Below, piece after piece: positions 3,040-64,000 of a stretch of DNA of 64,000 nt. The stretch spans positions 5,126,536 through 5,190,535 of the forward strand of contig BSYO01000014.1 of the NCBI GenBank assembly GCA_033239525.1. The letters run 5' to 3'. Source of the stretch: Nepenthes gracilis (lineage: Eukaryota > Streptophyta > Magnoliopsida > Caryophyllales > Nepenthaceae). The translations under genes and the position numbers were made by a program. Within the stretch, counting starts at the first letter, position 1; each line of letters starts with the position of its first letter. Below the pieces are notes generated by a model. That model did not search any database, had not been told where the DNA came from, and saw nothing but the letters and a program-made list of their open reading frames with translations.

Positions 3040-5184
3040 TTGAATGTATATGTAAACATCCAGATTTCGCTCTAACAATTTCGCTCTGACAAAGGCGATT
3101 TTCAAAATTCAAATTCGAATTTTGATTCTGCGGGCGTCGTCCTCGACGCGTCTGACTTTGGGTGCCGGGCGGCTCCTGTGCCTGCCCGGCCGGCCTCGGT
3201 TGCTTGCCCGCCCCCCGTCACCCGGCTTCTATGTGCTGGTGCTGTCGGCCTCGGCGACCTCAAGAATTCGGTGTTGCCTGCGATTTTGATTGCCTGCGTT
3301 TTTCGACCATCTTTTCGCCTTCGTGGAGGCGAAGGCTCCTCCTAGGTTGGAGAGTTCGTGGCTGGTTGGGTGATGCTTGACCGAAGCCTGAATGTACCGG
3401 CCGTGGAACCGTTGGATGCCTATGAACTTTCGGTTACGTGGCTCAGGAGCTAATTCCGTTGGCGTCCTGGTAGGTCTCGCTCTCTGTTCGGCTTCCCGTG
3501 CCTGGAGTCTTGGGCTGTTGGATTGGCTTTCCTCTGCCAATGTGATTCACCATTGTTAGTTGGGTTTTTGGGGTGCCCATGCTGCTCTGGGTGGAGCTTT
3601 TGGCTGAGGTTTTGTGATCCGATAGTGTTATCTTGGCTGCAACGGCTGGCTGTTGAGTCGAGCTCCTGGCTGGTTGTTGTCTCTGTGGTCGCTGCCTTAT
3701 GGGGTGAAATGCCTGTCTGCAATAGTGGCATCTGCGATTGGGTTCCCGGTGGGCTGTTGCCTCTTCTCGTAGTAGTGATGCTGCCGAATGTACCCGGATG
3801 CTGCTCCGATTGGCTGTGTTTCCCATTTGTTGATTGGGTAGGGGGTGCCCGTGGGCTTATGGTTTGGGTCTCGTCGGCTGAGAAATGAGTAGCTGAATGT
3901 GGTTCTTTTTGGTGGCTTTTTGCTCTTCTTGTTTGAGGTGATACCTTGCCGGTGAGCTGATTAATTGTGGTGTCTGTGGTAAAGTCCATTGGACTGATTG
4001 TCTGGCTAATTCAGCCTGTATTGATGTTGTTGCCTGTTGCAACTTCATCTTTTGTATGGCTTGCTGCAATGATTGGTATTTACCTCCTCTGGTTTTATTG
4101 ATCCTTTGCTGCAGCCAGAATTTGATTGAGGGACAGTGGTATTTTCTTCTGTCTCGAGATCTTTCTTCTGCAACTTTGCTTGCTGAATTTTCGGCTACTT
4201 CGTCCTCTGCATCAGGAGCAGCCGATTTTGCCTTCTGATGATGTCCTTGGATTGTTTGTGTCTGGCGATTTCAGCCAATTAGCTGAATTTGTTTCTTTGC
4301 ATCAATTCTGAATCATATGATCTATGGATTGCTGCTTTGGTCTATCGATGCTATTGTTGCGGCTGAATGGACTCCAGTGCTGAAGGATGTTCGGTTGCTG
4401 CACTTCTATTGCAATGGTTTGGTGATTGTGGCTGCTGGATTAATGGCGTTGGATGATGTTGGGTCATGGTGCTGTACCCGTATACTGGGCCATGATGCTT
4501 CTCTGTAGAATTATGCAACTTATTTTGTTCTGCAGTTCAGTAGTGCTATTTGGTTGGTGCTGCCTGCCTGTGCACTGTGATTGTGCTGAGCTAAATGCTG
4601 GTCCCTTGTGGTATGATGGCATGGTGGGAGCCAATGTTGATGTGTTTAGCTGGTTTTGGTACTGGAGTATTCTGCTCTCAAGTGCGTTGTGCTTCTGCCG
4701 GGCCAATTTGTGTGGTTCAGCTGCCTGTTGTAGTGCATTTTGCTGTTGGCTAGCTGCAGTAGTGCAGCAACCGATGGCAATGTCTTGCTGGAGCTGCTGG
4801 AATGCTTTCTGGCTGCTGTGGTGTGGAGCTGTGGGACTTAAGCTGATGTCGGATGTTTTTGTGCTGCATCTGCTGGCCGTAGGCTGTTGGTGCTAAAATG
4901 CCATGTAGGCTGCCTGCTGGCTCTTTCATGTTGCTGGCATTCTGGATCTTGCCTGGGAATGGCAGTTTATTTTTGTCTAGGAATTACCATTGTGTGATGC
5001 TCTTGTGTCATATGATCACCAGCCATTTTATCCTTTAGCTGGTATCATCAGTTGTATCTAAGTGCTCGGGGCATGCCCTAACTTTTTTGGTTTATCCCCA
5101 AGTCGGAAAAACACTTGGTGATAATTCCATACTTGTAAATTTTCTCCCATAAATCCAAATCACTTACTTATCAAAAAAAAAAAA
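3040..5184 (+). mobile_element. E1: full-length ORF-less short element, 2.1 kb
   Basis: E1 is bounded by a perfect 14-bp TSD, GGCTCTACGGACGG (3026-3039 and 5185-5198), and splits the LINE-A reverse transcriptase. The 5' end has an AT-rich self-complementary box (AATTCGAATT near 3111) followed by a GC-rich leader (about 3130-3260). The rest is CTG-rich with no conserved ORF. The tail has the GCTCGGGGCATGCCC hairpin (about 5063), a TTATCCCCAAGT/ACTTGGTGATAA stem-loop (about 5093-5127) and CTTACTTATC plus poly(A). Element Z (60022-62133) matches it along its whole length, so E1 is a defined non-autonomous subfamily member rather than a random truncation. Confidence 0.9.
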
Positions 5185-6299
5185 GGCTCTACGGACGGGA
5201 AGGCAAATGCAAAAGTGGCTTGGTCCGATATTTGCTACCCTAAGAGTGAAGGTGGGTTGGGGCTTAAAAATTTGCAGGCTCAAAATAAAGCCCTTATCTG
5301 CAAGCTCTTATGGCGTATCCTGTCTAAAGACCCCGAATCGGCATGGTCTTCTTGGATCCAAAAGACTAGAATCAAGGACCGGTGCATCTGGACCCTCAAA
5401 GTCCCTGATTCTGCCCCTTGGAGCTGGAGGAAGATCATGAAACTTCGTTCGTTCATGTGCTCACATGCTGTTAAGATCATTGGTGATTGTGTCGATTCCT
5501 TTATCTGGCATGACAATTGGCACCCGGGTGGCCCGCTCAGTAGGGTTTGCACGGATCGCATCCGTACGATCACTGGTTTATCTTGGGACGGCAAGGTCTC
5601 TTAGATAATCAGAGATAACCAATGAGCCTGGCCTAATCCTTTTGATCAGGAGGTTTCTAGTCTCGCCACAAACATGCCCCATTATTCGCCCAACGATGAG
5701 CTTAAAGACTCTTTGAGATGGGTTGGTAGCTCTAACGGTGTCTTTTCGTCTAAGTCTGCCTACCTCCTCTTTCACCCGCCTAAGCCGAAACTGAGCTGCA
5801 CTAACCTTGTCTGGGGTTCTTTCCATATTCCTGCCCACGCCTTCACCCTTTGGCTGGCTATAAAAGGCCGGCTTAATACCTCCGACCGTGTTTACGGTAT
5901 TCCCAACCTCTCCCTCACTTGTTCTCTCTGTGATTCGAGACATCGAAAACCATGACCATCTTTTTCTCTTGCCCATTCTCCTCCTCCGTGTGGACTTCTA
6001 TCCAACGGATTCTTGGCATTCAAGTGGCCATACCCCATCTGGTCCCATAATGTTAATTGGGCTGCACACATGTGGAAAGGTAACAACCTCATCGCCCTCT
6101 CAAAGCGTCTCTCTTGCGGCCATTTGTTTATTATATTTGGAGAGAACGTAATAATCGTATCTTCGAGAGTTCACCCCATCAGGATGCTTCCCAGATCTGC
6201 TCCTAGGTTTCAAACGTCGTTCGAGACAAACTAAAGGCCTCCTTGCCTATTGCTGGTCGCCCTAACCACTCGCTGGTTAGGCGATAGAACTTATAAAAA

Positions 6300-8563
6300 T
6301 TAAAAAATTAAAAAAAAAAGGGGGGGTGGTCTCCTTTGCTTATTTAGAGGCTGCTGTCCTCTGTTTGCCCTTAAGGGTTGTGCTGCTGGGGGTTCTGCTC
6401 TGTGGTGGCCTTCTGATGGCGCTCTGCCGGGTCTGGCTCCCCGCTGCCCTACCTTATGTTGCTGAACCTTCTGGTTGCTGCCTCCCAGGTGCGGGTCGTC
6501 TGATTTGGCTTTTGTTCCCGCCTTGGGAGCCTTGGTTGTTCTCTCCTCTCCAAAAAAAAAGGGTTCCCTGAGCCCAAAAAAAAAAAAAAAAAAGTGGGGG
6601 TGTTTGGATCCTGGGGTTTTTTGCTGCTGGGCCTTGGTTGATACTGATTTTGCAGGATTCTCTTATGCTCTTTGTGGTGGGTTTTTTTCTTGAGTCTGAC
6701 ATGGCTGTGGCTATTCCTGCTTTGGGTTGATGATACTGCTCCCTGAAATTGAGATGTGGATTCTCCTGGTTGGGATTGGAGTGTCTTGATCTGGTTTGTT
6801 GCTCTGTGTTGTGGCTGGGGGTTATGTGGGATGGTGCCTTGGCGTTCTATGACTGTTCTGCCTCTGGCCATGAATCTAGTCAGTGTGATGTGTTGGACCT
6901 GATTAGCTGTTTCTGTTGTGGCTATGCCGAGCTGCTGAAACACAGAAGTGGGATGCTCAGTCTGGCTCACTGTTTTGTTACTGATGTTGCACATGTGGCA
7001 TTGCTAAGGAGCTGGTGTTGTCAACTCTTTCCCTTCTGCTGGGCCAGTTGACCGGTTGTACATTTCTACACACCTGTTAATCTGCTGTGAACCTATTGCT
7101 GTATGGATTTTCTCTGCTATTATTTTGGCCATCACAATTGCTAATGTGGCTGTTGCTGAGATGTTGGAGTAATGCCGAGCTGGTTGGTCGAGTGCTGGTA
7201 TCTGATATTGGCTCTCGGGGGTTGGGTTTGGAAGATTATCAGTTGGGCCTGAATTGTTGCTTGGAGAGATGCTGAGATTGCATGGTTTGCTGGCGGATCT
7301 AGACTATGATTCCTCATGGGCTAGCTCCCTATTGCTGATCTTTGCTGGGACTGCTCGCGGGCGCAGCTGATCTTGCTAATGTAGCACAGCTCCATTATCT
7401 GTCGGGCTTGGGTTTGCTATGTGTTCGAGAATTGAGCTGACTGGCTACAGAAGGCGTCCTTGCCATTTTTTGCAGCTGGTTTCGTGGGTTGTTGAAGGCG
7501 TCCTGCTTTCCTCTGTGGTTCTTTTTTCTTTTCTCTGCTTGCTAGGTTACTCTGATTATTGCGCTGAAGCTGTGTTGGGCAGTGCCCTGCTGAAGCTGCT
7601 GGCCTTTGGTCTTGTTTTTGTGGCGTGGAAGCACTGGTCTTATGCTGCTGGCGGCGTTGGTTATGGGTTGAAAACTCTTAAGCTGTTTTTGTTGGCTATG
7701 ATGCTGTAACATTTAGTATTAGCCTGGCCTACTTGCTGTCCCACCTGATTCAAGGAATGATGCTGCTCATGGTGGTTAACATGCTAGTTATTCTGGGTGG
7801 CTATTTTGCCGACGGGTGGTGCTGCTACTTTTCTTAAGTGATGTTGTTGGGTATGTGCTGATTATGCTGCCTGCTGATGCAATGTGCTGCTGGAGCTGGG
7901 GAATCGGAATTAGAGGATTGCTGTTTGGTGGATGGCAGGGCTTGGTATCTGCAGTTGCTGTTTCGTGGCTGGCCTGCGGGTGGTGCTACAGTTGCTGTGC
8001 AGATGTGCAATTTTCTTATCCTGAATGTGCTGGTGCTGAAATGACCAAGCCTTATTGGAGCTGCTGGATTGCCATAATGTCTGCTGGGGCCTGGAATTAT
8101 TGGATCTCGGCTGCTGGTCGGGCAGTCCACATTCTGGGCCTTTACTGCTGCTGGCCTTGTTCATTGGGATCACGGCTGTTATGCGTTAATGCTCCCGATG
8201 TGGGTATGGCTGGTTTTGTAGTACCATTGCAAATGAAGGTGCTGCTATTTTTGTTCTCTCATGTTGCTATGCTGTCTGGCTAGTGCGATGCTACCCGTTA
8301 CCGTTGCTGATCCAAGATGAATATATCAGTTGGGTCTGTTTTTCTGTCCTAGGTTCTTTAGGCGCACATTTTCACGAATCTTTTCGTGTGTATTAGATGA
8401 CAATTGTGGTAGTTTTTTTTTTTTTTGATATACTAGTTGCTCGGGGCATGCCCTAGAGCTTAATGTTTTACCTCTAAGTAAAATACTTGGAGTTAAAATA
8501 TTTTTCTTGTAATTATTTTCTCCCATTAATCCAAAATTCTAACTTACCAAAAAAAAAAAAAAA
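6300..8563 (+). other. LINE-A 3' module: internal A-tracts, CTG-rich region, hairpin tail
   Basis: After ORF2 there is an A-rich tract and a G run (about 6295-6326), about 230 bp, then A-tracts at about 6551 and 6579. About 1.9 kb of CTG/TTG-rich DNA follows, without a credible gene. The small Leu/Trp/Cys-rich ORFs are products of CTG bias. The tail includes GCTCGGGGCATGCCC near 8432, an imperfect TACCTCTAAGT/ACTTGGAGTTA stem and AACTTACC plus poly(A). Confidence 0.75.
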
Positions 8564-8706
8564 GTACTAGGTGCTCGGGGTATGCCCTAACTTTTTATGT
8601 TCTAACTCCAATGTCAAAAAATTTAGAGTTATAACATAGGTTTTGTAAATTTATTTTCTCCCTTTAATCCAAAATACACACTTACTTACCAAAAAAAAAA
8701 AAAAAA
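8564..8706 (+). mobile_element. U: 3' tail of an element interrupted by LINE-A
   Basis: A second complete family tail follows directly after the LINE-A poly(A): GGTGCTCGGGGTATGCCC, a TAACTCCAA(TGT)/TTTAGAGTTA stem-loop, CACTTACTTACC and poly(A) at 8691-8706. The short GTACTAG at its start is the normal sequence just upstream of this tail, so U looks split by LINE-A at that point. The body of U would lie left of the window. Confidence 0.65.
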
Positions 8707-10827
8707 GCATGTTCCTTGGTTGATCTCCTGTTGCTGAGAACTGTTTTTTTTTTTGGTAAGTAAGTATTTTGGATTAATGGGAGAAAAAAATATTACAAAA
8801 TTGATGTTTTATCGCCAAGTATTTTAACTTGGGGATAAAACATAAACCGCTGGGGTATACCCTGAGCAAAAGTACATCCAAAGGTACAAAACAAGCCTCT
8901 AGGAGGCCCACGATCTACAAACCCTATAGAGTTGAAAAATATTACAGAAAAGTTCAAAAACCTACAGCAGCAGGCCCATCAGCCATACACACCAGCTTTC
9001 GAACATCCCTGGAACCCACAGTCTACAGCACAACCTTCAGCAGGGGAGCATGATGTTATCAGCAACCAACTGCAAACCAACACTACTCAACAACCGCATC
9101 TTTGCCAGATCAACAGTCCAACATCCAGTTAAGGACAGTCGGACAGCCCACAATTCAGCATTTTTGCATTTTACAGCACCTTTCGACACAGTCGGACAGT
9201 TGCTGAGAACTGCTGTTTACGCATTGCTCTCCATTTGTTTGCTAAGCTGGCCTCTGCTTCTGCTGGTGTATGTTGGAGTACTGCTGCATAAGCATTGCTA
9301 CTCCATTTGTTTGCTGAGCTGGTTTCTGCTTCTGCTGGGGCAAGCTGTTGGTCTTTTCTTGCTGAGGTGTTTGGGATGCATGGAAGCTGGTTAGACTAGC
9401 AGCTGGGACTCCAATGTGGATGTTGATTTCACAATTGTTTGTTTTCTTTGTGAAGAAAGTGGTGGATCAGCGAATGGAGTTGCTCCTAACGATGGATGTG
9501 GTTATTGATGTTGTTGCATCCTGTTGAGTGTAGCACATTGCTGATGCTGCTTACTTGCTGATATTCTGATGTTGTCCAGCTGATGGCGACTTTGAATTTT
9601 GGACCTTTGCTTCTGGGAGCCACCTTCTGATGCTGGTGCTTTTGATGGTGGTGGCTGTCTTGGAATGGCATGGAGCAGGGGTCACACTCAGACGATTGCC
9701 AGATGCCCTTGCAAATGTTATCCCTCCTCTTGGAAGGCTGTAACTCAATTGCTGCTCTTAAGTTGGGCTTGTGAAGAGCAGCTAACGATGTAGGAGGTGC
9801 TGTAAAGGCTTTCTATGCTGCTGTCACAGTGTTGCCTCTTGTGATCGATTCTATGGAGTCGATGGTTGTGGCGGGAAGTTTACTACATGTGCCTACTTCT
9901 TTGGCAGAGTCTTTCACTTTGCTGTTGATATGAGCTGCTGTGGAATAATGGTAGCTTCAAATGGTTGTTTATATGGAAATCCTTCCTGCTGTTGCTGAAG
10001 GACGCTGCTTTTGATGCCAACGCTGCTATGAATTTTCTGAGGCGGCTCCGTGCTGTCCATATTGCCCTGCTGCTGGTCCCAGTGTTGATTTTCTTGGTTG
10101 CTGTAATCCTGTTCTGTTGCTGTTGAAGACGGCAGCATGGTGTTGCTGAAAAGGCCCCTGGGTGGCCTGAAGATCCATTTGGCAATAATGTTGAAGCTGG
10201 TGGAGACACGAATTCTTCTGTTGCCAGTTTCAGTAGCTGATGTTGGAAGGGTGCAGAATCCGGTTGCTGCGATGAAAGGCAGCTGCTGTCGGTTTGCTGC
10301 TTTCTCATTCTTGCATGGAATTAAAATGCTAGACGCAGCATCTTGAAGTTGTGAGCTGATGAGGCTGCGGTGCTGTTGCTACTGGCGCCTGCTGTGCTAT
10401 TGGCTTGGCTTGTCCTGGATGTGGACACTAGATATCCTGGATCCATTTTGGTGACTTGGATATCTAGTTATCCTAGATATCAGCTGCCATTTGCTCCTTG
10501 CTGTGAAAACTAGGGTGCTTTTGGTTGCCGGCTGATACGTTCTAAAGTAGTAAGTTGCTGCGGGGTGATCGGATGATGTTGTTCCAATCGTCTCGAGAGT
10601 AACTGATTTTGCTTTAACTTATGTATAATGATAGTGTTCTTTTTTTTGTTTTTCTGTAAGATAGTTTCTCTTAGGTTTTTTGAGAAATTCTCTGTTGTAT
10701 CAGTTGCTCGGGGTATGCCCTAGCGTTTTATGTTCTAACTCCAAGTCAAAAAATTTGGAGTTATAACATTGCTTTTGTAAATTTTTCTCCCGTTAATCCA
10801 AAATACACACTTACTTACCAAAAAAAA
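8707..10827 (+). mobile_element. V: CTG-rich family element, 5' end outside window
   Basis: This CTG-rich non-coding stretch ends in a canonical tail (GTTGCTCGGGGTATGCCC near 10702, a TAACTCCAAGT/ATTTGGAGTTA stem-loop, ACACTTACTTACC, poly(A) at 10820-10827). It lies against LINE-B ORF2 sequence on the minus strand, so V inserted into LINE-B. The other TSD copy is outside the window. A 455-bp antisense family copy interrupts it at 8744-9198. ATCC/GGAT-rich direct repeats near 10430-10490 (GGATATCTAGTTATCC-like) are the only other structure noted. Confidence 0.75.
8744..9198 (-). mobile_element. 5'-truncated family copy in V
   Basis: This antisense copy is bounded by a perfect TSD, GTTGCTGAGAACTG (8730-8743 and 9199-9212). 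On the minus strand it ends in a stem-loop pairing around CCAAGT/ACTTGG (about 8803-8842), then ACTTACTTACC and poly(A). About 300 bp of upstream module is retained, so it is a short 5' truncation. Confidence 0.88.
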
Positions 10828-12347
10828 AGTTTTAGAGAGGATAGGGGTACCGTGAATCCGATCCGTGGTGTTAAGCCTACCCCTTATAGCCAGCCAGAGA
10901 GTAAATGCATGGGCAGGGATGTGTGAGGGGCCCCAGACTAAGTTTGTCCAGCTTAGTTTGGGCTTTGGAGGGTGAAAAAGAAAGTAGGCCGACTTAGTAG
11001 AGAAATGGCCATTTGGCCTTCCATCCCAACGCAAGGTATCTTTACGCTCAGAACTAGGGAGGTAATGGGGCATATTTTCGGCAAGGCGAGAGACTTCCTG
11101 ATCAAAAGGATTAGGCCAAGACCATTGATCATCTCTAATTATTTGAGCAACCTTTGCGTCCCAAAATAACCCCGTGACCAGGCGAATTCGGTCCGAGCAC
11201 ACATTAGTGAGCGGGCCCATAGGGAGCCAGTGGTCATGCCAGATAAAGGTATCAACGCCATCACCAATGATCTTAATTGTGTGGGTGCACATAAAGGGCC
11301 GGAGTTTCATGATCTTTTTCCAGCTCCACGGTGCTGAATCAGGGACTTTTAGGGTCCAGATACACCGATCCTTTATTCTAGTCTTGTGGACCCATGATGA
11401 CCAAGCCGATTCGGGGTCTTTTGTCAAGATACGCCATAACAGCTTGCATATGAGGGCTTTATTTTGTGCCTGCAGATCCTTAAGCCCCAACCCACCTTCA
11501 CTCCTAGGGTAGCAGATGTCAGCCCATGCAACATTTGCATTAGCCTTTCCTTCAGTGGAGCCGTTCCACAAGAACCACCTTAACAAGGATTCAATCTGAT
11601 TCAAAATGGATTTGGGGAGAAGGACAATGGATGCCCAGTATAGGTGGATGGACGATAGGATGGAAGCTACAAGTTGCAGCCGTCCCCCGAATGAGAGCCA
11701 CCTATTTTTCCATGATTTAATCCGCCTAGTAATTTTCTCACTGAGGGTGTTGCAATCGCGGATCGACAGCCTGGTGGTAATCAGCGGGACACCCAGGTAT
11801 CTAATGGGAAGAGAGCCCAATTTGAAACCCAGGATATCGGCAATAATCTGAGGAAGAGAGGGGTCCTTGGAGCATATGAATATTTCGCTCTTATTCACAT
11901 TTGCCGAAAGGCCAGAGAGCCAATGGAATTCCTCAATGCAGTCCTTTAGAATACGAATTGAATCGGCATCGGCGCGAGAGAATAAGAGAAGGTCATCTGC
12001 AAAGGCAAGCATTAGAGTCTTAGATGCCTTACAATTCCAGTGAAAATTGAATTTTTCATTCCTACAGGCCTTGGCATTAATAATCTCATTCAAAACTTCT
12101 ATAACCAAAACAAACAGGTATGGGGAAATGGGATCACCCTGCCGAATCCCCTTTCCCCCTTTGAAGAAACCAATCGCCTCCCCATTAATATTGACAATTG
12201 TACGAGGGGTAGTTATGCATTGCTTAATCCAGTCGATCATTTTAGGTGGGAAATTCATAATGGTCAAAGTAGAAATAATGAAGTCCCAATGTACTGAGTC
12301 ATACGCTTTCATGAGGTCAATTTTCATGGTGCAACGAGGAGGATCAT
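10828..12347 (-). pseudogene. LINE-B ORF2: RT palm to connection/zf-RVT block
   Basis: This block is a long open frame on the minus strand, starting near 12327 with MKIDLMKAYDSVHWDF and continuing through GKGIRQGDPISPYLF, the FADDLLLFSRAD catalytic block, LPIRYLGVPL and the WKNRWLSFGGRLQL region. It reaches LWLAIRGRLNTTDR of the zf-RVT segment near 10850. There V interrupts it, and the last 30-odd residues of the open frame belong to V. Within the block it is one of the best-preserved RT stretches in the window. The missing N-terminal RT motifs are in the next block. Confidence 0.88.
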
Positions 12348-13298
12348 TGCAGGGGACTCGAAGTTATGGTGCTTCAGATATGAGAGCTGGGGTTGATGCA
12401 GTTGTTGGATATCGTTTGCCTGGTCGCTGAATGGGGTTTGGTCTGATGCTCTATGTTGATCTGTGGTCCGATGCACTATATTGATCTGATGGGAATGTTT
12501 ATTCCTGCATCTGTATTGGTGCAGCTCTTTGAGGTTTTTGGTGCTATTATTCCCTTGTATGGCTGGGCGTTTGATGGTCGATACCCATGTATTCTGGCGT
12601 ATTGGTGATTGTCAGTGCTGTTGAATGATGTTGATGCCTCAGTCTGATTTGCAGCGGATGTTGCTGCGCTGCGTGTATCTAGTCACGTGCCATTGGGCTG
12701 CAAGGTGCAGGCTGTTGGCTGCGGTTGTGCAGATGTGCAATTTTCTTATTCTGAGTGTGCTGGTGCTGAAATGGCCTTGCCTTATTGGAGCTGCTGGAAT
12801 GCCATTATGTCTGCTGGGGCCTGGAATTATTGAATCTCTGATGCTAGTCGGGCATTCCACATTTTGGGCTTTTATTGCTGCTGGCTTGATTCGTTGGGAT
12901 CTCGGCTCTTTTGCGTTAATGCTCCCGGTGTGGGTTTGGATGATTTTGTAGCACCTTTGCAAATGAAGGTGCTGCTGTATTAGTTCTCTGTTAGTGAGAT
13001 GCTGCCCGTTACCGTTGATGATCCAAGATGAAGATGTTAGTTTGGTCTGTTTGCTGTCCTCGTTGCTTTAGGCGTAGATTTTCACGAAACTTTCCGTGTG
13101 CATTAGATGACAATTTTCATTCTCTGGTTTGTGGTAGTTCTTAATGTTTTGTTTTTCCTTCTTTGATGTACTAGTTGCTCGGGGCATCCCCTTGAGCTTT
13201 ATGTTTTACCTCCAAGTAAAATATTTGGAGTTAAAATATTTTTCCTGTAATTTTTTTCTCCCATTAATCCAAAATTCTTACTTACCAAAAAAAAAAAA
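12348..13298 (+). mobile_element. F': 5'-truncated family element in LINE-B
   Basis: F' is bounded by a perfect 17-bp TSD, GCAACGAGGAGGATCAT (12331-12347 and 13299-13315). It is 951 bp, CTG-rich and non-coding, and ends in GTTGCTCGGGGCATCCCC, a TTTTACCTCCAAGT/ATTTGGAGTTAAAA stem-loop and CTTACTTACC plus poly(A). The body from about 12700 matches the LINE-A 3' module from about 7980, so it is a copy of the LINE-A subfamily that lost its 5' part. Confidence 0.9.
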
Positions 13299-15919: not shown

Positions 15920-15937
15920 ACTTACCAAAAAAAAAAA
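15920..15937 (+). mobile_element. Tail-only insertion 2 in G
   Basis: An 18-nt insert, ACTTACC plus 11 A, lies between GTGGTGATGATGATGTT (15903-15919) and GTGGTGTTGATGATGTT (15938-15954), a 17-bp TSD with one mismatch. It contains nothing of the element beyond the terminal heptamer and poly(A). Confidence 0.8.
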
Positions 15938-16063
15938 GTGGTGTTGATGATGTTTCCAGCTGCTGGATTCTTGGGGTGCATTTAATTTTGCTTATGTATA
16001 ATGTTTTTTTTTTTTTGGTAAGTAAGTATTTTGGATTATAGGGAGTAAAAATTACAATATCAA

Positions 16064-16100
16064 TGTTTTTTTCCAAGTATTTTGACTTGGAAAAAAAACA
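16064..16100 (-). other. 3' stem-loop of H (representative, with compensatory stem)
   Basis: The conserved stem-loop here has an unusual A/T-only distal stem. On the minus strand TGTTTTTTTTCCAAGT faces ACTTGGAAAAAAACA around a CAAAAT loop, so both arms changed together relative to copies with ACTCC/GGAGT or ATCTCC/GGAGAT. Confidence 0.75.
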
Positions 16101-19880: not shown

Positions 19881-20204
19881 GGCCGGCGACGGGGCCGCGA
19901 GAGCCGAACGGACGGCAAGCTCGAATTTGAAATTCGAAAATTAGAGAGAACCCAAACCGGACAGGGGACTAATTGCTTATGTATAATGACTTTGATCATT
20001 TTCGATCTTTTAGATTATTCCCCTTAGAGGTTTTCTTGAAATATCCGTTGATGTACTAGCTGCTCGGGGTATACCCTAACTTTTTATGTTCTAACTCCAA
20101 GTCAAAAAATTTAGAGTTATAACATAGTTTTTGTAAATTTATTTTCTTCCTTAAATCCAAAATACACACTTACTTACAAAAAAAAAAAACCATTTACAGT
20201 TCTG

Positions 20205-34419: not shown

Positions 34420-34436
34420 AGGCTTGAGTTCAAAAA

Positions 34437-53331: not shown

Positions 53332-55229
53332 TCAAAGGGCCGAGGCTCCCGGGGAAGCCTTAGGTTTTTTGGGCTTTTTCTTTTTTCGTGATTTTGAGGG
53401 TGTCCAAGAATCACACTCAAGGGCCAACGCCTTATTGGCACTCAAAAATTTCTTAGTGGAGTAAACACGACCCACTGAAATTTCAACAGAAGAAAATTCG
53501 GATTCCACATGCTTGAAAGAATCCAGTCTATATTTTTTAGTTATACGACGTATAGAGATAGGAGTACACTCACTATCTGTATGAGATTCGGGGCCCGACC
53601 TATTGGGGAGAGCAATAGGGGGCCACCCATCCTACCGGTTGCATTTGAAAGGCAAACCGATCGTCCGGGATCTACGGACAGCAAAAATGAATCCGATACC
53701 AAAGGAGCTGAAACCCGATTGGTCTCCTCATCATCAGGAGGGGGATGGTTTATCAAAACGGGATCACCCACCGGGCCAGGGACATCCACCCGTCCCTCAT
53801 TGGAGTCCAGCCTACAAGGCAGCCTGGCATTTTCAATATCCACAGAATTCACATGATCCGGATCCAGCCCAAGACCAAGGATTGCAGCAGCAGAATTTTG
53901 ATGCATACATGGAGCAGGGGATGCTGAATAAGAAGCCTGAGCATGAGGCAGCTTATTCAACTGAGAGCAAACTGGATTCGGTGATGTACAAGAGGGCAAC
54001 TTGGGGTCACCCGAGGAGTCTAATACAGAGACCACAGATGTAGAGAGCACCTCCAAAAGAGTTTGGCCCAGTCCATGCACCGAAGGTTGGTTGAACATAG
54101 AGGGGTCAACCTCCGTGCCCAGAACAGCAACATGGCCGGAAGGACTGGATAGCGGATTGGAGACATCCGAACAATCCTTCAAAGAAGCCTCAGATGCAGA
54201 AGACGTCTCTGGCTTAGGATGAGCCAAGTTGGGCAACACGCCCTTCAGGTCCAGGGATTCTGAAACTTCACCTGACTTCATGCCATTGCCGTGGAAGGAA
54301 TCATCAGATTTTTGGTGGTCTATGCCAGTGCTTCGTCTTCCCCTAGACCAGGAACCTGGCAAGTCCACCTCCACAACAGTGGCATCAACCCCTTCATTTG
54401 CAGAGCACTCTAAAATAATCTTGGACGGCAGCACCGAATCGGGAGAGATTTCGACACACACCCTAGCAGCTTGCAACCGATCCATTTTGGCAGTGAATGC
54501 ATCAAGGTGGAGAGGTCTGCCCACCGCGCTACTAATCCAACTGAGCCTAAGAGGGGTCCAATATTCTGCCGGAACGTTTCTCAATCGAATCCAAACGGGA
54601 AAAGATTTCAATTGTTCCTTAATCAACGGCATTCCCGGGTGCCAGCGCTTGAGAAAAAAAGGAATACCTCTAAACGTCCAAGGGGATCTGGCCAGGACCG
54701 CGTTTGAGAGTTCGTCAGATGAGAATCGAAAGAGGAAGATTCCATTTGCACCCTTCGCAACATGACAGAGGCCAAATCTCTTCCAAATTCGACGAGCAAT
54801 GTTTGCCACGGCATGGAAATTGAGGCCATTTCCAGAGAAGCATCCAACCATGGTCGACTTCCAGGAGAGTAGACTCTGTTGAATCACTTCAGGGGGTGGA
54901 GAAATTCGCGCGACTTCACCAGCAACTGACAGTGGAGGAAAAAATTTCAGGGACGGAGAAGTAGGGCGCCCATGGTTTATGGCGGAATCAGACCCAGAGG
55001 AGAAGGACGGAGCCGGCGCAGAGGCCAGGCCCGAAGTTGACGGGCTTTCCACACCAGACGACGAAACAGGTTGGGGAGAGGGAGAACTCGCATGCACAGT
55101 GGAATCGGGTGGAGAGGACTGAGGACCCGAAACATTGTGGAGGCAAGGCAGAGAGGAGGGGTCGAGAGCCGCAACCGAAGGGCCAGCTGGGGCCGACAAC
55201 GCCGCCGTCGGAGACGGGAGGAGCGCCAT
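53332..55229 (-). pseudogene. M ORF1: DUF4283 protein, one frameshift
   Basis: The start at 55229 (TCCATGGCG, MALLPSP) opens about 560 codons. The Ser/Pro-rich N-terminus is followed by DUF4283 at about 54890-54430: STMVGCFSGNGLNFHA, FGLCHVAKGANGIFLFRF, LKSFPVWIRLRNVPAEYW, LSWISSAVGRPLHLD, AARVCVEI. A VVEVDLPGSWSRGRR motif follows, then a low-complexity middle with GRSVCLSNATGRMGGP. The frame shifts near 53560, after which ISIRRITKKYRL, a Trp and SRKKKKPKKPKASPGASAL end it at 53332. No knuckle is present. About 630 residues, like Y and P. Confidence 0.85.
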
Positions 55230-55254
55230 GGATGAATTCAAATTTGAAATCTGA

Positions 55255-55501
55255 AATTCGAAAGTAAGAGAGAAGGAGGAGAACTTCTCTCTACGGCTTG
55301 TTGTAATTCTTGGGAGGTGGGCATTGTTTAACAGAAATATCAGGATCAGGAGAGGGCCTAACGGAAACGGGATTTGGATTTATTGATTCAAGTTTAGGGG
55401 GAGAGGAGAGTTTGGATGGTCTATTGGGAGAGCCCCCTTTGTCAAGGCTTTTTTTTTTTTTTGGTAAGTCCCCTTTGTCAAGGCATAGAGTCAAAGGAGG
55501 T
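55255..55501 (-). other. Extra 5' sequence of M, possibly captured coding fragment
   Basis: Between the usual leader start (GTTCTCCTCCTTCTCTC) and the TSD lie about 210 bp absent from other copies. In one minus-strand frame they read DKGGSPNRPSKLSS, PPKLESINPNPVSVRPSPD, PDISVKQCPPPKNYNKP, then TAG. It looks like a 5' transduction or template-switch product. The source is not identified. Confidence 0.5.
55449..55469 (-). mobile_element. Tail-only insertion 4 in M
   Basis: On the minus strand this is ACTTACC plus 14 A, between two perfect copies of CCCCTTTGTCAAGGC (55434-55448 and 55470-55484). No other element sequence is present. Confidence 0.85.
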
Positions 55502-55860: not shown

Positions 55861-56789
55861 TCTTGTTTCAAGACACGATGCCTTCGGCTGCTGCTGGAGG
55901 CATTTGCAGGTATTGAGGGTTTTGGGTGCTGCGGTTGGGGTAGCCTCGTTGATGATGAGGTTTGGGATGTAGCCTCTCAGGAACGTGTTGGTGTTGGCAG
56001 ATTTCCTCTTTGCTGTTTCAGAGGTTGGTTGTGCAGAGACCGAAGCCGGGCTTGAACGCCGTGATGAAATCTGGTCCCCGTTGCTTATTTTAGATGAAGT
56101 CTATGTTTTTTCGCGCCGGGTTTCAATCATTTGTCTTTGGTGGCTGCTGCTGAAATCGATGGGAGGGGAGCAATTTGTTAAATCATGCTCTTTTTTGGAG
56201 GCTGGTTGATACTGGCCATTTGTGTGGATAAATCAAGTCGCAGCCCTGTTTTTGCCTCTGATGACGATTCTCTCTTGCTGCTTTAGAATTCGGGTTCTTG
56301 GTGGTGGAACTTTGCTGTGGCATTTTGGAGTGGATTGTAAGCTGCCTTGCTTCAAACCGGCCGTGCGTGACTTTGAATCTAGAGCTGTTTATTTCGCTAT
56401 AGATTGATATTACTTGGCTGTACCAGTTTTCCCCGTTGGATCTACGGGCCTCGGAAGCTGTTGGACCTTCTTGCTCTTTGTATATTTGTACTGCTTTCGT
56501 GCCTACTTGCTGCGTCTGTGTTGAAGATCTTGAGGCGCTGGACGTGTAGCTTCGGGCTTGCTGTGAACTGCTGGAATGGGGATTGAAGATCTTGTGCCTG
56601 TTTTTTATTCTGTGGTGTCTGTAATTAGTTGTCCTCTTAGAGATCTTAGATATTTTCTGATGTAACACTTGCTCGGGGCATGGCCTAGCGTTTATGTTTT
56701 AACTTCAAGTCAAAACACTTGGAGATAAAATATAGATTCTGTAATTTTTCTCCCTTTAATCCAAAATACTTACTTACCAAAAAAAAAAA
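55861..56789 (+). mobile_element. N: 5'-truncated family element in L
   Basis: N is bounded by an 11-bp TSD, ACAGTGCCGCC (55850-55860 and 56790-56800). It is 929 bp, CTG-rich, non-coding, and in opposite orientation to its host. The tail has GTCCTCTTAGAGA (56630), GCTCGGGGCATGGCC, TTTTAACTTCAAGT/ACTTGGAGATAAAA and ACTTACTTACC plus poly(A). Confidence 0.87.
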
Positions 56790-57227: not shown

Positions 57228-58888
57228 TTTTTTTTTTTGGTAAGTAAGAATTTTGGATTATAGGGAGAAAAAATATTACAGAATCCATGTTTTTACTTTT
57301 TTTTTGGTAAGTATTTTGGATTGATGGGAGAAAAATTACAAATTGATGTTTTAACTCCAAGTATTTTGACTTGGGAGTAAACATAACCATTGGGCATACC
57401 CCGAGCGATAAGTACATACAGAGTTACATAATGACCTCTAGGAGGCCAACGTTCTACGTAACCTATAGAAAATGAAAAATATTACATCACAAAACAGCGG
57501 GTCGAACCCATCGAACCCAAGCCAGGTGAAGCAGCTGAACCATCGGCCAACAAAGAAAATCACCACTTCGGGTTCAAGAAACCACACAACCGATCCAGCT
57601 TCAGCCTTTGTCATTTTACATAATCATGCTACCCACAACCCAAATGCTTCCCAAGGTTACAAAAGTAGAAGCAAATCAGCAGCTACTAGATTATTTCAAA
57701 GAGCCTCCAAAATTCCAAGTTGTGCTCCAAAGATCACTCATAATGAGCCAGCAACAGCAACACGGCACGAACTACCAAACAGCAGTTCAGCCCAATAGCA
57801 TTCCAGTTCGAGCAGCATGGAACAACCCCATAGATCATCAGGAGCAGCACCCAAAATCTGCCAGCAAACCATACATCAAAACCACGAGCTCACCATTAGA
57901 TGCATCCAATTCATAGCCGCAAGTATCCACCCCCAATCCAGAGCAGTACAGCATCAACCACCCCGATCCAAAGCACTCTGCTTCAGCACACCAATTATGG
58001 CAGCAGAACCATGGCTACTAGTGGATCAAAGCGGCAGGTACACAGTAATATCAGCAATTGTAATGGGGCATACAGGAGCAGCACCAGCCACTCCCAACAG
58101 CCCACTCCAGAATCGCTCCTGGCCAGCATTCAGGAAAGAGGAAATGCTTCCGGTATGCATTCCTTAATTACAACCAATCAGCAACAGCAGCAGGTCACAC
58201 CAACAGCCGACCAAAAACTGTTCTAACCATCACCACAAGATCAGCAGTCCAGCCACCATTAGCATCCATAAGGTGGTTACACATGGGAGCAAAGCCTGAT
58301 CAGCACCAGGCAGCAAGACATCCATTCCAAGAACAGCATAATTCCAGCTCGTCCACAGCAAGAACCAACTACCACGATACTATGCTCCCTCCCAGCCAGT
58401 CTCAGCCGTCAGATGCCCAATTTATAGCCATCCTTCGACTACTGAACAATTGGAGCCCCATCAGCAGGGTAGCTTACCAAAACAGGGGTCAAATAATTCA
58501 CCCATGGCAATCAGCGGCATCCAAATGATCGGTTGAAGCACAAAAGGCGAGAACCCAACAAGCAAAGAATGAATAGCCACCCACAGGCTTAAACCGTCAA
58601 GTTTATTCACCAGCTGCAAACCTCCAATTTTAGAAAAAAAATTGGAGCCCCAGCAACACAGGCAACATACCAAAATATTCACCTCTGGCATGCAGCAGCA
58701 TCCAACAATAGCACAGACCAGTGGAGGCAGATGAAGTTCCCAGGAGACAGGATATATTTTGCCCGGTAAGTACCAAAAAGCCTCTAAGCACAATTCTTAT
58801 GAGGCAGGAAGAATCCACCAAAAGACACCAGATCAATTCCAAGGTCCCAGGATCAAGACCCAGACAAAAAAACTCCAGCAGCAAAGTC

Positions 58889-61800
58889 CTAAGAGGCAGA
58901 GGCGCCTCTGGACTTTTTGGAGGCAGCCTTCTTCTTTTTCCTAGACATAGGAGTCTTCCAATTAGCCTCCATGCCCCTCAATTCATCAACCGAAGAGGAA
59001 ATTGAGGAATATTGCTTAGTAATCCTCTTGACAGAGCTTGGGGTAAGCATAAATTCATCTAAATCTATATTATGATGTTGAGATTCGGAATCCGGGGAAT
59101 TAAGATCCAAATCATCCATCTGCAAAACCAGGAGGCCATCCACACATCTGGAGTCATCCGGTAGGCATAATTGATGCGCACACTCAGCTGAAGATTGTGA
59201 GATAGCACTCCCAATCTGGCTTCTGTCAACAGAACCCAAAAGGGGAGGCCCATCTAAGTACCCAGAGTTTGCCGAATGCCTCATTTGGATTCCAATGTCA
59301 TCAGATTCTTGGGATTCCGAACCAAGAGTCTGAATAGCCAGCAGTCCAGGGGTGACAGAATCCAGCACAGCCCCAGGAGGTGAACCACTCACGCTACATT
59401 CACAATTCTGGGGCTCAAATGTGTCAGCAGTTGGATTCGTGGGGGAATCCATTTGATTCACGGCTTTATCAACCACAGAAGTGGAGACATTAACATCAAT
59501 CCCATGTCCAGGGCATGGCGAGGAGACCTTTTGGACATTTTCCACCGGTACAGAATTGGTGGAATTGTAGTGGGAATTACAACCACTTTGACCCACAGTA
59601 ACTTTCTAGGCATCAAAATCGGGTGGGGGAACACCCACGTTCCCAGGACAGGGCGTTGAGGCCAAAGGAGTCTTATTCAAATGAGCAGAGCTGGAAGGTT
59701 TGGATCGGGACTTACCAGAAGGAGCATTAGCATCCATGGGATGACATTGTACTCCTTCATGCCCCAACAGGCTGCATCGACTGCACCGAATAGGCCGCCA
59801 GCTATACTCCACATTAACCACAACTGGGGACGAATCGTGGCTGGCTTTGATGGTGAAGCTTTTGGGAAAAGGCCCGTCAACCACCATCTCCACACAGACT
59901 CTAGCGAAGGAGATATTCTCCATACGGGCAGTCCGGGAGTCAAGCTGGATAGGAACGCCCACAACACTAGCAGCCCAGCTGAGGCCGGCCTGGGTCCAAT
60001 ACTCAATCGGCAGATTGTGTATTTTTTTTTTTTGGTAAGTAAGTGATTTGGATTTATGGGAGAAAATTTACAAGTATGGAATTATCACCAAGTGTTTTTC
60101 CGACTTGGGGATAAACCAAAAAAGTTAGGGCATGCCCCGAGCACTTAGATACAACTGATGATACTAGCTAAAGGATAAAATTGCTGGTGATCATACGACA
60201 CAAGAGCATCACACAATGGTAATTCCTAGACAAAATAAACTGCCATTCCAGTGCAAGATCCGAATGCCACAAGAATATGAAAGAGCCAGCAGGCAGCCTA
60301 CATGGCATTTTAGCACCAACAGCCTACGGCCAGCCAGACGAAAGACAAAAACATCCGACATCGCCTTAAGTCCCACGGCTCCACACCACCAGCCAGAAAG
60401 CATTCCAGCAGCTCCAGCAAGACATTGCCATCGATTCTCGCACTACTGTAGCTAGCCAACAAAGCAAAATGCACTACAACAGCAGCTGAACCACACAAAT
60501 TGGCCCGCAGAAGCACAACGCACTTGAGAGCAGAATACTCCAGTACCAAAACCAGCTAAACACATCAACATTGGCTCCCACCATGCCATCATACCACAAG
60601 GGACCAGCATTACACATCAGCACAATCACAGTGCACAGGCAGCAGCACCAACCAAATAGCACTACCGAACCAGAACAAAATAAGTTGCATAATTCTACGA
60701 GAGAAGCATCATGGCCCAGTATACGGGTACAGCACCATGACCCAACATCATCCAATGCCATTAATCCAAAGAGCCACAATCACCAAGCCATTGCAATAGA
60801 AGTGCAGCAACCGAACATCCTTCAAGACTCGAGTCCATTCAACCGCTGACAATAGCATCGATAGACCAAAGCAGCAATCCATAGATCATATGATTCGAAA
60901 TTGATGCAAAGAAACAAATTCAGCTAATTGGCTGAAATCGCCAGACACAAACAATCCAAGGACATCATCAAGGCAAAATCAGCTGCTCCTGATGCAGAGG
61001 GGCACAGTAGAAAATTCAGCAAGCAAAGTTGTAGAAGAAAGATCTCGAGACAAGAAAATACCTTTTGTCCCTCAATCAAATTGGTCAAAGCAAAGGATCA
61101 ATAAAACCGGAGGAGGTAAATACCAATCATTGCAAGCAAGCCATACAAAAGATGAAGTTGCAAATGGGGAACAACATCAATACTGGCTGAATTAGCTGAC
61201 AATCACCCAATGGACTTTACCACGAGACACCACAATTAATCAGCTCCCGGCAAGGTATCACCTCAAACAAGAAAGAGCAAAAGGCCACCAAAAAGAACCA
61301 CATTCAGCTACTGATTTCTCAGCCGACAAGACCCAAAACCATAAGCCCACGGGCACCCCCTACCCAATCAACAAATGGGAAACACAGCCAATCGAGCAAA
61401 GCATCCGGGTACATTCGACAGCATCACTACTACGAGAAGAGGCAACAGCCCACGAGAACCCAATCGCAGATGCCACTATTGCATGACAGGCATTTCACCC
61501 CATAAGGCAAACCACACAGACAACAACCGGCGGGAGCTCGACTCAACGGCCAGCCATTGCAGCCAAGATAACACTATCGGATCACAAAACCTCAGCCGTA
61601 AAGCTCCACCCAGAGCAAAGCATGGGCACCCCAAACCCAACCAACAATGGTGAATCACATTGGCAGAGGAAAGCCAATCCAACGGCCAAGACTCCGAGGC
61701 ACGGTGAAGCCGAACGAGAGCGAGACCTACCGGGACGCCAACGGAATCAGCTCCCTGAGCCACGTAACCGAAAGTTCATAGGCATCCAGCAGATTCCACG

Positions 61801-62749
61801 GCCGGTACATTTTCAGCTTCGGTCAAGCATCACCCAACCAGCCACGAACTCTCCAACCTAGGAGGAGCCTTCGCCTCCCAGAAGGCGAAAAGATGGTCAA
61901 AACGCGTGGGCAATCAAAATCGCAGGCAACACCGAATTCTTCGAGGTCGCCGAGGCCGACAAGACCCGGCACATAGAAGCCGGGTGACGGGAGGGGGCGG
62001 GCAAGCAACCGGAGGCCAGCCGGGCAGGCAGGAGCGCCTAGCACCCAAGTCAGACGCGTCGAGGACGACGCCGAGCAGAATCAAAATTCGAATTCGAATT
62101 TTGAAAATCGCCTTTGTCAGAGCGAAATTGTCTTCGGCAGATTGTGTAGCTTAATCCAAACTGGAAATCGTTTTTGTTCATCCTTGAGAAGAGACATCCC
62201 CGGCTTCCAGCATTTGAGGAAAATAGCTTTCCCAGCCATGGTCCCCTGGCCAGCCTGGAGACATTTATTCAACATCTCCTGCGAAGAGAAACGGAAGAAG
62301 AAATACCCGTCTTCATTGCCGGCCGTGTGAGTGAGACCGAATCTGCCCCAAAGCTTGTTTGCAATGGCTTTGACCGCCAAGAAGTGAGGGGGGGAGTCAC
62401 AGAAGTAGCCAAATAAGGAGAAGCGCCAGAAACTCTGGCCTTGTTCGATGACTTCTGCCGGAGGGGAGATAATGGACGGAGAACCACCATCGGCCACCGA
62501 CGGGAAGAAAGTCAGCTCCATACGCTCCGGACGACTGTCTTTGCGCACAACTTCAGCCCAGCTAGATGAGCAACTGACCTTGCCATTAGGTTCGAAATCG
62601 GAGCCCTTAGGTTTCAAGACGCCCGAAATCTTTCCTACTGGGATGGAAGGAGATGGTGCCGATGGCACTGAAGCCTTTGGAGATGATGAGGGGACAGGGG
62701 AAAAGGCATCCGGAGAGAGGCCGGAGGAGGGCTCGAGGTGGTCGGCCAT
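58889..62749 (-). pseudogene. Y ORF1: DUF4283 plus CCHC zinc knuckle, split by Z
   Basis: The start at 62749 (ATCATGGCC, MADHLEPSS) leads into DUF4283: FWRFSLFGYFCDSPPHF, FGLTHTAGNEDGYFFFRF, QKRFPVWIKLHNLP. Z interrupts at the next codons. After Z come LSWAA, VVGVPIQLD and FARVCVEM, then a CX2CX4HX4C knuckle (CSRCSLLGHEGVQC, near 59785), missing from the other ORF1s here. One TAG near 59604 separates this from a 230-codon stretch ending with SVKRITKQYSS, a Trp and SRKKKKAASKKSRG. About 585 residues without Z. Apart from Z and one stop it is intact. Confidence 0.88.
60022..62133 (-). mobile_element. Z: full-length ORF-less short element, 2.1 kb
   Basis: Z is bounded by a perfect 15-bp TSD, TCGGCAGATTGTGTA (60007-60021 and 62134-62148), in Y ORF1. 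By eye it is collinear with E1 and mostly identical, from the AATTCGAATT box (62086-62098) and GC-rich leader to the tail (TTATCACCAAGT/ACTTGGGGATAA, 60090-60116; ACTTACTTACC plus poly(A)). It has no conserved ORF. It is the youngest insertion in the right-hand nest. Confidence 0.92.
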
Positions 62750-62768
62750 GATCGACGGAGGCGAATCC

Positions 62769-62808
62769 ATGTTTTTACTCCAAATATTTTGACTTGGAGT
62801 AAAAACAT
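62769..62808 (-). other. 3' stem-loop of X (representative perfect hairpin)
   Basis: The plus strand reads ATGTTTTTACTCCAA, a short loop region AT(TTTTG)ACT, then TTGGAGTAAAAACAT, a perfect inverted repeat of 15 bp. The Y insertion duplicated the first bases of this arm. Confidence 0.8.
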
Positions 62809-64000
62809 AAACTGCTAGGGCATTGCCCGAGCATCTAATACATCAGAAAAGGAATAAAAATAAAACAACTCCTCTAGGAGGACAAGCGATTAACATAATC
62901 CACAAAATATGGGACCAGACTAATATATGGCCAAACACAACAACCGCAGCTACCAATCCGACATGAGCATACAGCAAACGAATCACCATTCCAGCCATCG
63001 GAGAATCAGCCAAATGCTTCTTCAACAATGCAAGATTCCAACGACCGTTTGACGCGAGAACCTAAAGGGATCATCCGACAGGACAGGATTTCAGAACCAG
63101 CAACCACAAAAAAGGGGCCTGCACAAAAGCAGCAGCCACAAACCAAGAGGATCGCTGCAAAACCAGCAAAAAAACCAGCAGCAATTGCCAACCGCAGTGC
63201 ACTCATGAAACCTACAGCCGCGCAGACCAAGACCTACCGGCCACCTTAATGCGACCCTATATATCCAGTTCCCCCGACAGGCCAGCGCACACCCTACAGC
63301 ATCACTTAAAGAAGGCAGCAACATCAGCCTTCAGCAGCACAGCCAACCTCAGCATGGGCATAGACACTCGAGCAACATCGGTAGCAGCATTAATGCTACA
63401 GACCCCAGCAAGGCCACAGACACCGGAGCAATAATCGTATCACCATTAATGCAACATAACACACTGCATTACATTCCCACCAATCCCAGCTTCAAGAACC
63501 ATGCCAACCTACCTACCACGCCTAAACAATCGCACCAGAACCAGCACGCTTCGGCTAAAACTGCCAAGCAGATCAGAATACTCACATACCAGCAGGAAAG
63601 CATTCACCACAGTTCATCAACCCAGGTACCTCCACATCAGAATAAACAATGGACTCACAAAGCTTTGCACCCGCAGTAATAACTGGCAGGGACCAAAGCC
63701 AAATCTCAGGGGTCACTTCATATGGAGAAATCAACAAGATAAGTACAAAATGACCACACGGCAGGGGAGCACATTTGATCAACCAGGTGCACCTTAATCA
63801 TATGCAACGAAACATTCAGCAATGAACCGACTAAGCCATCAGCCAAAATCCAAAACGCCATAGCCCTTAGAACAAATGGAATCCGCAACGGAGTCCACCA
63901 AGATAAACACCATGGCCAGTGATTTCAGATCTCCAAGGAGATGACAGCACGGCCAGCAGAAAATTTCCAGCACTTCCACAACGCAGAAAATAGACCATCA

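Follow-up and report, generated by a model that had tools for sequence, protein, structure and literature searches.

Why do insertions of quite different build in one stretch of the Nepenthes gracilis genome share the same 3' end, and what reads that end? The window, the whole 64-kb stretch analysed (C14:5126536-5190535), is crowded with long interspersed nuclear elements (LINEs) and related insertions. The original prediction listed 23 places in it with one structured tail followed by poly(A), and took the tail as the recognition structure of the LINE protein encoded by open reading frame 2 (ORF2). We found a tail shared across element types and conserved as RNA structure, several classes of insertion with a common terminal motif, common target preferences, and diverse junctions between LINE sequence and a short interspersed nuclear element (SINE). 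The probable explanation is that a single L1-clade LINE machinery begins target-primed reverse transcription at this tail, with early aborts and jumps to the SINE. Searches covered the 752.5-Mb assembly (133 contigs), genome-wide counts being sequence-pattern matches only. The detailed analysis concerned this one genome, a 264-kb region containing the window (C14:5026536-5290535, numbered 1-264000, so that region 102224 is window 2224) and 62 short loci (8 of 3 kb and 54 of 0.3-0.9 kb). L005 was omitted because it overlaps L004.

Extraction and alignment confirmed the tail at all 23 places, whole in 22 and split by a nested element in one. It is 110-130 nt long and comprises a hairpin GCU(C)GGGG-UAUG-CCCYAGC, a longer covarying stem around CAAGU...ACUUG, a spacer, and the end (ACTT)ACTTACC; the tails align and finish in a short poly(A), whose lower length bound is fixed by the search patterns used. 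The proposed check with a covariance model bore this out: model R1, for which 46 tails from outside the window were used, recovered 22/22 whole tails with expectation values (E) <= 8.2e-13, and also detected both halves of the split tail (E 2.6e-7 and 1.3e-5). The next seven matches (E 0.12 to 0.65) were five antisense readings of the palindromic stem and two others. These 46 tails come from 51 extracted outside the window; L006:907, L007:2773, L008:2053, L009:4045 and L016:5737 were dropped from the alignment, and the extraction had passed over six further matches without a fitting poly(A) pattern. Genome-wide, GCTCGGGGYATRCCC with at most 2 mismatches gave 5074 + 5056 matches, and the reversed pattern 579 + 559. 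An Rfam scan of the window matched no family. The CCTC/GAGG palindrome, predicted as the first box of the tail, is not general: CCTCnnnGAGG is intact in 9/22 whole tails and absent or broken in 12, while at 31983 its letters are altered yet still pair (CCCCCTAGGGG), which makes 10/22. The remaining predicted boxes are common to the tails, with variants. Lying upstream of the hairpins, the palindrome is a possible third, optional hairpin.

The tail behaves as a structure at the RNA level. A 24-pair structure was drawn by hand from the alignments and their RNAalifold consensus. In the 46 outside tails, 89.1% of cells were paired, both sides had changed in 14/24 pairs, and 52 cells carried double changes; none of 500 shuffles had as many changed pairs or matched the alignment on any of five measures. 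When the structure was slid along the alignment, pairing dropped to 38-49%. Because the structure was drawn from the same alignments, the paired percentage leans towards structure, the change counts less so. The 22 window tails by themselves were weaker, with 89.9% paired and double changes in 5/24 pairs, and two of the five measures were unexceptional (62/500 shuffles, for the changed pairs, and 120/500). Compensatory changes are carried by the second hairpin (helix 2), where G.U (62) outnumbers A.C (26), an excess that fits RNA of the element sense. The outside tails thus have the conserved 3' stem-loop with compensatory changes by which stringent-type LINEs are known. Conservation is confined to this part: among 21 window elements (tail 8570 omitted), median pairwise identity was 81% over the 110 nt that start at GCTCGG; it was 65% over the 100 nt preceding them (62% after shuffling) and, further upstream, 60-61% (59% after shuffling), which is background. 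At least two diverged lineages, with other loops (such as GUUGGCAAAACAC), another first hairpin (AGGGGUUCCCCCC) and other spacers, keep the two-hairpin plan and ACTTACC-poly(A). Diverged tails, among others, lie at:

L012:611-738
L015:9691-9818
L009:1373-1501
L011:5593-5720

The tails bound real insertions. Exact target-site duplications (TSDs) of at least 11 bp flank 32/66 tail-zone A-runs in the 264-kb region, compared with 0/66 for reversed flanks, a control that covers only inserts of about 100 nt and more. A TSD score of at least 10 was reached by 36/62 tail-bearing elements (five matches without recognised poly(A) were omitted), and by 10% of 1220 cross-element pairings, a control possibly inflated by nested neighbours. 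TSDs and differing flanks also rule out a satellite. The sharing of one tail by LINEs, ORF1-only and ORF-less elements, with TSDs as element limits, therefore stands as predicted; the listed element at 8570 is a tail alone. Further classes are LINEs with both ORF1 and ORF2 and 5'-truncated copies. Separate frames in the window matched Pfam RVT_1, zf-RVT and Exo_endo_phos (ORF2) and DUF4283 (ORF1) above curated cut-offs, and the elements have the poly(A) 3' end and TSDs of plant L1-clade LINEs, to which we assign them, judging by sequence, together with ORF1-only, ORF-less and truncated relatives. ORF1-only elements occur at 16004-19972 and 51781-55498 in the window, and outside it at +63096 and, headed by a SINE, +68511. 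The mammalian ORF1-only L1 derivative HAL1 retains ORF1 and the 3' end and has no ORF2; the Nepenthes elements, likened to it by description only, carry a plant DUF4283-type ORF1. Elements that measure about 2.1 kb and match neither ORF1 nor ORF2 queries are 3040-5184, 60022-62133 and, outside the window, -46982, which has the same 5' part; -4038 equals them in length and has a different start. The entry at 57228 in the original list covers the 3' part of the split tail, into whose stem, between the halves, the element 57297-62762(-) with its 17-bp TSD was inserted. The tails and LINE coding fragments of the window are as follows; model R1 detected every tail, also in rows that do not name it.

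5053..5178 (+): whole tail of an ORF-less 2.1-kb element (3040-5184), TSD GGCTCTACGGACGG; R1
8428..8554 (+): whole tail of what is probably a LINE copy with its start upstream of the window; one TSD mismatch
8562..8706 (+): tail-only element directly after the poly(A) of the 8428 element; R1
8749..8878 (-): whole tail, ending a 5'-truncated element of about 453 bp; exact 14-bp TSD
10695..10825 (+): whole tail; R1
10735..12363 (-): ORF2 fragment (reverse transcriptase, zf-RVT); Pfam
13166..13292 (+): whole tail, ending a 5'-truncated element (12348-13298); 17-bp TSD
16004..19972 (-): ORF1-only element, tail 16011-16135, ORF1 17686-19590 (DUF4283); 16-bp TSD, Pfam
20051..20184 (+): whole tail of element 14153-20189, which contains the nested 16004..19972 element; 16-bp TSD
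21524..31943 (-): LINE, ORF2 27675-29846 (endonuclease, reverse transcriptase), ORF1 30039-30950 (DUF4283), tail 21524-21655; a SINE 3'-end piece (31898-31943) is fused to its 5' end; candidate 9-bp TSD GCTCCGGAT, by eye
26964..27091 (+): whole tail of a 5'-truncated element (25537-27095) nested in LINE 21524..31943; 15-bp TSD
31985..32112 (-): whole tail, ending a 5'-truncated element of about 1.7 kb; one TSD mismatch
35931..36059 (+): whole tail, ending a 5'-truncated element (35547-36067); 15-bp TSD
36950..37077 (+): whole tail; R1
37239..37365 (-): whole tail; R1
39171..39299 (-): whole tail, ending a short 5'-truncated element of 261 bp; one TSD mismatch
40210..41373 (-): stop-to-stop frame with reverse transcriptase (ORF2 fragment); Pfam
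41260..41382 (-): whole tail, subfamily with loop GUCGAAAAAACAC; R1
43652..43785 (-): whole tail; R1
43941..50627 (-): LINE, ORF2 pieces 46709-48103 and 48104-49852, tail 43945-44078; TSD GCTTAATTTCTTG with 1 mismatch, score only 9
51781..55498 (-): ORF1-only element, ORF1 53541-55379 (DUF4283), tail 51789-51915; 19-bp TSD with 1 mismatch
56660..56784 (+): whole tail; R1
57233..57297 (-): split tail, 3' part; alignment, R1
57297..62762 (-): ORF1-bearing element, tail 57300-57417, host of the nested 60022 element; 17-bp TSD
60022..62133 (-): ORF-less 2.1-kb element, tail 60028-60153; 15-bp TSD
62763..62933 (-): split tail, 5' part; alignment, R1

When the end motif was searched instead of the hairpins, a class of very small insertions surfaced, and the original list of ACTTACC-poly(A) ends proved incomplete: at least four hairpin-less micro-insertions and one SINE in the window had been overlooked. 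The four are:

2194..2234 (-): micro-insertion of 17 nt, the tail's poly(A) end only; 12-bp TSDs, empty site in related LINE copies
15903..15954 (+): micro-insertion ACTTACC-A11; 17-bp TSDs with 1 mismatch
34387..34437 (+): micro-insertion CTTACC-A11; 17-bp TSDs
55431..55484 (-): micro-insertion TACC-A14; 18-bp TSDs with 1 mismatch

In the 264-kb region and 27 short loci, 19/99 TTACC-A7+ sites carry inserts of 16-28 nt with a TSD score of at least 9, and none of the 99 has an insert of 29-60 nt between direct repeats. The portion derived from the LINE tail is 4-10 nt in 17 of the 19, and 3 and 16 nt in the other two, some of these letters belonging also to the TSD. Among other A-runs, 7/234 pass the same test: four of A/T-rich low complexity, one tandem-like repeat, one degraded micro-insertion and one unexplained. 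For four of the 19 (region 24484, 102224, 11178 and 9703), the joined flanks align gaplessly to related uninterrupted copies; at 115922 the match is weaker and gapped. This control and the empty sites rule out chance A-runs. GGAGTGC-rich short tandem-like repeats at L011 about 4380-4900 (region 24380-24900) hold a micro-insertion. Genome-wide, ACTTACC-A10 has 2956 + 2880 (5836) matches, and its reversed control 13 + 5 (18). On contig C1, 45/90 such ends, counted by hand, lie within 343 kb (17.163-17.506 Mb), as do 20/24 of the exact hairpin cores listed. The first 20 ends on C1, taken in order, all fall outside this cluster. Eight of them pass the strict micro-insertion test, L046 and the decayed-repeat L031, L036 and L038 resemble micro-insertions by eye, and a hairpin tail is present in three (L037, L042, L048), with a partial tail in L045. 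By extrapolation, insertions of this kind could number hundreds to thousands genome-wide, in chromosome arms. We found no report of 16-28 nt LINE micro-insertions in plants in the open-access (PubMed Central, PMC) literature searched.

What every insertion class has in common at its 3' end is ACTTACC-poly(A) rather than the hairpins. A poly(A) of 7-16 and TSDs with a median of 15 bp are found alike in micro-insertions, SINEs and tail-bearing elements. The first TSD base is G in 75% of 64 sites (31 elements, 15 SINEs and 18 of the 19 micro-insertions, one being removed by a length filter), and the base before the TSD is T in 48% and A in 36%. Since the end of the A-run sets the TSD start, A can hardly occur at the first position; even among the other three bases, though, G is far commoner than its background of about 31%. 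TSDs that mostly start with G imply a primer strand whose 3' end is mostly C, not a T-run pairing with poly(A). Mammalian L1 target sites, in contrast, are TT/AAAA. Exact TSDs of at least 11 bp accompany 39 A-runs (>= 8) in the 264-kb region, and 34 of these begin at the LINE-specific end: 32 belong to tails, one to a micro-insertion and one to a SINE. On reading, the other five were two repeats or low-complexity stretches, one related-copy match and two unexplained cases. On the opposite strand ACTTACC reads GGTAAGT, the consensus 5' splice site, and it matches a portion of the 5' end of U1 snRNA; an antisense insertion supplies a T-run and then a perfect 5' splice site.

The third class is a repeat of about 200 bp with a B-box-like motif (GGTTCGATTCC in the alignment) and a 3' T-run. 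It stands alone at window 13389-13577(-) and region 20299(-), and both copies end ...CACAG/CATAG-T(n)-(A)ACTTACC-An, with TSDs and without hairpins. The window copy is:

13372..13594 including 17-bp TSDs (-): SINE insertion, 189 bp (13389-13577), ending ACTTACC-A15, without hairpins

Among 22 copies chosen for an ACTTACC-An end (20 fetched and 2 local), 17 have a TSD score of at least 11, with inserts of 183-215 bp. Genome-wide, 68 junctions join the SINE to ACTTACC (control 0), with T3 to T7 and varying LINE letters, as in AACTTACC, ATACTTACC, CACTTACC, ACACTTACC and ACTTACTTACC. The SINE 3' end itself (CCTTAACACAGTTT) occurs at 186 places (reversed control 7). Among the 100 of these for which downstream sequence was listed and sorted by motif, 35 lead into ACTTACC-A ends, close variants included, and 4 into a longer stretch of LINE tail; 14 lead into sequence like a LINE 5' end, 12 into another SINE and 35 into other sequence. 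Fourteen of the last group were fetched: two are not SINEs, and 11 of the 12 genuine copies run into LINE or SINE sequence, eight of the 12 into LINE or ORF1 5' regions and two into the ORF2 interior. L072 is a SINE dimer followed by sequence resembling the body of the tail-bearing element -11254, and in L075, the twelfth copy, the sole match covers 48 nt and lies 212 nt downstream. The kind of junction showed no relation to SINE similarity: pairs with the same junction (21) had a median of 0.885 and the other 189 pairs 0.888 (permutation P 0.55; 21 copies, the short L059 omitted), which rules out inherited junctions. Single TSD pairs bracket whole chimeras, namely +68511 (SINE and ORF1 element, 10-bp) and -11254 (SINE, SINE and LINE tail, 19-bp); the fusions show the mark of template-switch chimeras of the MINE and U6-L1 kind, a non-coding RNA as 5' part joined in the same sense to a 5'-truncated LINE 3' part within one TSD pair. 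In L008, near 2472(-), the SINE is joined to a complete hairpin tail. Dimers in which the T-run end meets the 5' end of the next SINE (C12:8159359, C13:10634093, C17:4145389, L072 and others) look as repeated template jumps would give. The prediction drew on SINEs that copy a LINE stem-loop; this SINE lacks it and is joined to LINE sequence at variable points. Nor is it the LINE's own 5' promoter, as ORF1-bearing elements with good TSDs start without it (region 63096, window 16004). A SINE whose copies are each freshly joined was not found in the PMC literature searched.

A single course of events could connect these classes. The ORF2 protein would grip the hairpins and begin copying at ACTTACC-poly(A), and reverse transcription would frequently halt after a few nucleotides, within the (ACTT)ACTTACC end. 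The short cDNA could then be sealed in, leaving a micro-insertion, or the enzyme could jump to the oligo-U 3' end of an RNA polymerase III (Pol III)-type SINE RNA, which, carried as second template, would yield a newly tailed SINE. Jumps onto the same SINE end would also start further along the LINE RNA and at its 5' end, giving chimeras and dimers. The abort might arise because an enzyme bound to hairpins some 45 nt upstream must release them, as in abortive initiation. Micro-insertions are accordingly read as aborted products of target-primed reverse transcription, and recognition of the hairpins by the ORF2 protein, as we infer it from sequence, fits the data. The junctions point to end-to-end template jumping, a known process, as apparently the usual route of this SINE. 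We incline, by a small measure, to the view that the SINE spreads mainly or only as second template, having no 3' recognition tail of its own, and that the same early abort left the micro-insertions as fossils of failed retrotransposition.

Several observations weigh against this account. Micro-insertions and SINEs carry no hairpin, so these products do not prove that hairpins are needed; they are compatible with recognition because, under the jump model, the first template is LINE RNA. Helix 1 is nearly invariant and shows little covariation. TSD scores stay below 10 in 26/62 tail-bearing elements, and as the cross-element control reaches 10% at score 10 and 7% at score 11, a few of the 31 element sites in the target-site tally may be false. 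Two A-runs without ACTTACC (region 153051 and 158641), at window 52936-53060 and 58461-58650 (region 152936-153060 and 158461-158650), have direct repeats of 13-14 bp and could be relaxed poly(A) insertions or chance. For the SINE head, ARAGORN called a tRNA in 0/7 sequences and Rfam gave one sub-threshold match to an unrelated family, so its Pol III origin rests on the B-box-like motif and the T-run. Slippage could account for some of the differences in the number of Ts at the junction. Much of the same pattern would be expected from a conserved polyadenylation or stability element. In that explanation, the tail serves polyadenylation or RNA stability, the LINE protein reads poly(A) alone, as mammalian L1 does, and the hairpins are irrelevant to reverse transcription. 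The aligned tails do finish in poly(A), and TAATCCAAAAT followed by ACTTACC-poly(A) could act as a plant poly(A) signal with cleavage site. We hold it unlikely, however, given that 34/39 A-runs with exact TSDs begin at the LINE-specific end and that TSDs mostly beginning with G leave no T-run primer.

The stand-alone SINE might instead be an ordinary family that encodes ACTTACC and is chosen directly, ACTTACC-poly(A) alone being the recognition signal. The TSDs of 17/22 copies picked for that end, and micro-insertions that end identically, agree with it. Yet the same SINE 3' end also meets LINE interiors, LINE 5' ends, hairpin tails and SINEs, and the junction letters echo the tails of different LINE subfamilies independently of SINE relatedness, so that we regard direct choice as doubtful. 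Plain descent, in which the non-autonomous elements are internal-deletion products of LINEs that passively retained the 3' end, accords with ORF1-only elements that are clearly LINE-related. It seems quite improbable nonetheless, for the upstream 3' regions are at background while the tail is at 81% with compensatory changes.

Initiation at the tail with early aborts and jumps, if it holds, bears on two open questions: whether plant L1s read structure or just poly(A), and which partner moves SINEs ended by T-runs. Excerpts of PMC3747384 name p-SINEs and Au-like SINEs as lacking a known partner, and the second-template route, if true, could explain the movement of plant SINEs ending in short T-runs. 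ACTTACC serves as a barcode of the RNA copied first, so that early template switching is separable from direct choice by sequence alone. A common product may, as the micro-insertions suggest, be overlooked when LINE insertions are counted; a mammalian survey, in the excerpt consulted, counted only insertions of 50 bp or more (PMC2912911). Micro-insertions also record endonuclease cut sites in chromosome arms, where hairpin-bearing copies are rarer (one contig examined). Around the window, tails are dense to about region 181000, some 17 kb past its end, and then almost absent (one at 245034), so that a LINE island ends abruptly there. Comparable clusters lie on C1 (17.16-17.51 Mb) and C2 (11.26-11.39 and 12.45-12.87 Mb), and might be pericentromeric. 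That the island is a known LINE centromere was rejected, as the excerpted N. mirabilis paper describes largely Gypsy regions.

Among known systems, compared here from excerpts of the cited papers, L1-clade LINEs that combine a structured 3' end with poly(A) have been described before; the present one is a new member, in a eudicot and with a longer, two-hairpin tail. The combination, which the original prediction noted here in contrast to other systems, is present and is shared with Chlamydomonas L1-1_CR and SINEX-3_CR and silkworm SART1, whose 3' ends are shared or required (PMC3747384). Those are other organisms, and SART1 belongs to another clade; the excerpt describes no micro-insertions for L1-1_CR and SART1. 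Close in kind is the stringent plant L1 'monocot 1a' (ME1) of Ohshima, which shares a conserved 3' hairpin with the maize and sorghum SINEs ZmSINE2 and ZmSINE3 (PMC3747384). Both are plant L1-clade LINEs with compensatory changes in a 3' hairpin shared with non-autonomous elements. In ME1, however, the conserved end spans ~45 nt and has a single hairpin, CGAG and UCU being conserved, whereas the Nepenthes tail has 110-130 nt and two hairpins of other sequence in a eudicot; compared by eye with the excerpted description, the tail consensus has at the corresponding place neither CGAG on the 3' side of the stem nor the loop's UCU. The ME1 SINEs contain the structure, and most SINE copies seen here do not.

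For the fusions, a close parallel is Magnaporthe MINE, in which WEIRD RNA is fused to a 5'-truncated MGL LINE with TSDs and preferred switch sites, no solo WEIRD being described in the excerpt (PMC2104539). In both cases a non-coding RNA forms the 5' part of a fusion with LINE sequence, flanked by TSDs. The 31 MINE chimeras switch at a GCC*A/U motif at several LINE sites (PMC2104539), while the main switch in Nepenthes would lie a few nucleotides inside the poly(A) end, with a putatively tRNA-like SINE as acceptor. In mammalian U6 snRNA/L1 chimeras, an oligo-U-ended Pol III RNA is the preferred switch acceptor, and LINEs of stringent clades yielded chimeras only (PMC4476161, as excerpted). The mammalian U6-poly(A) class may reflect either early switching or a polyadenylated snRNA (PMC4476161); in the Nepenthes SINEs, the LINE is marked as first template because the ACTTACC letters stand between the poly(A) and the SINE.

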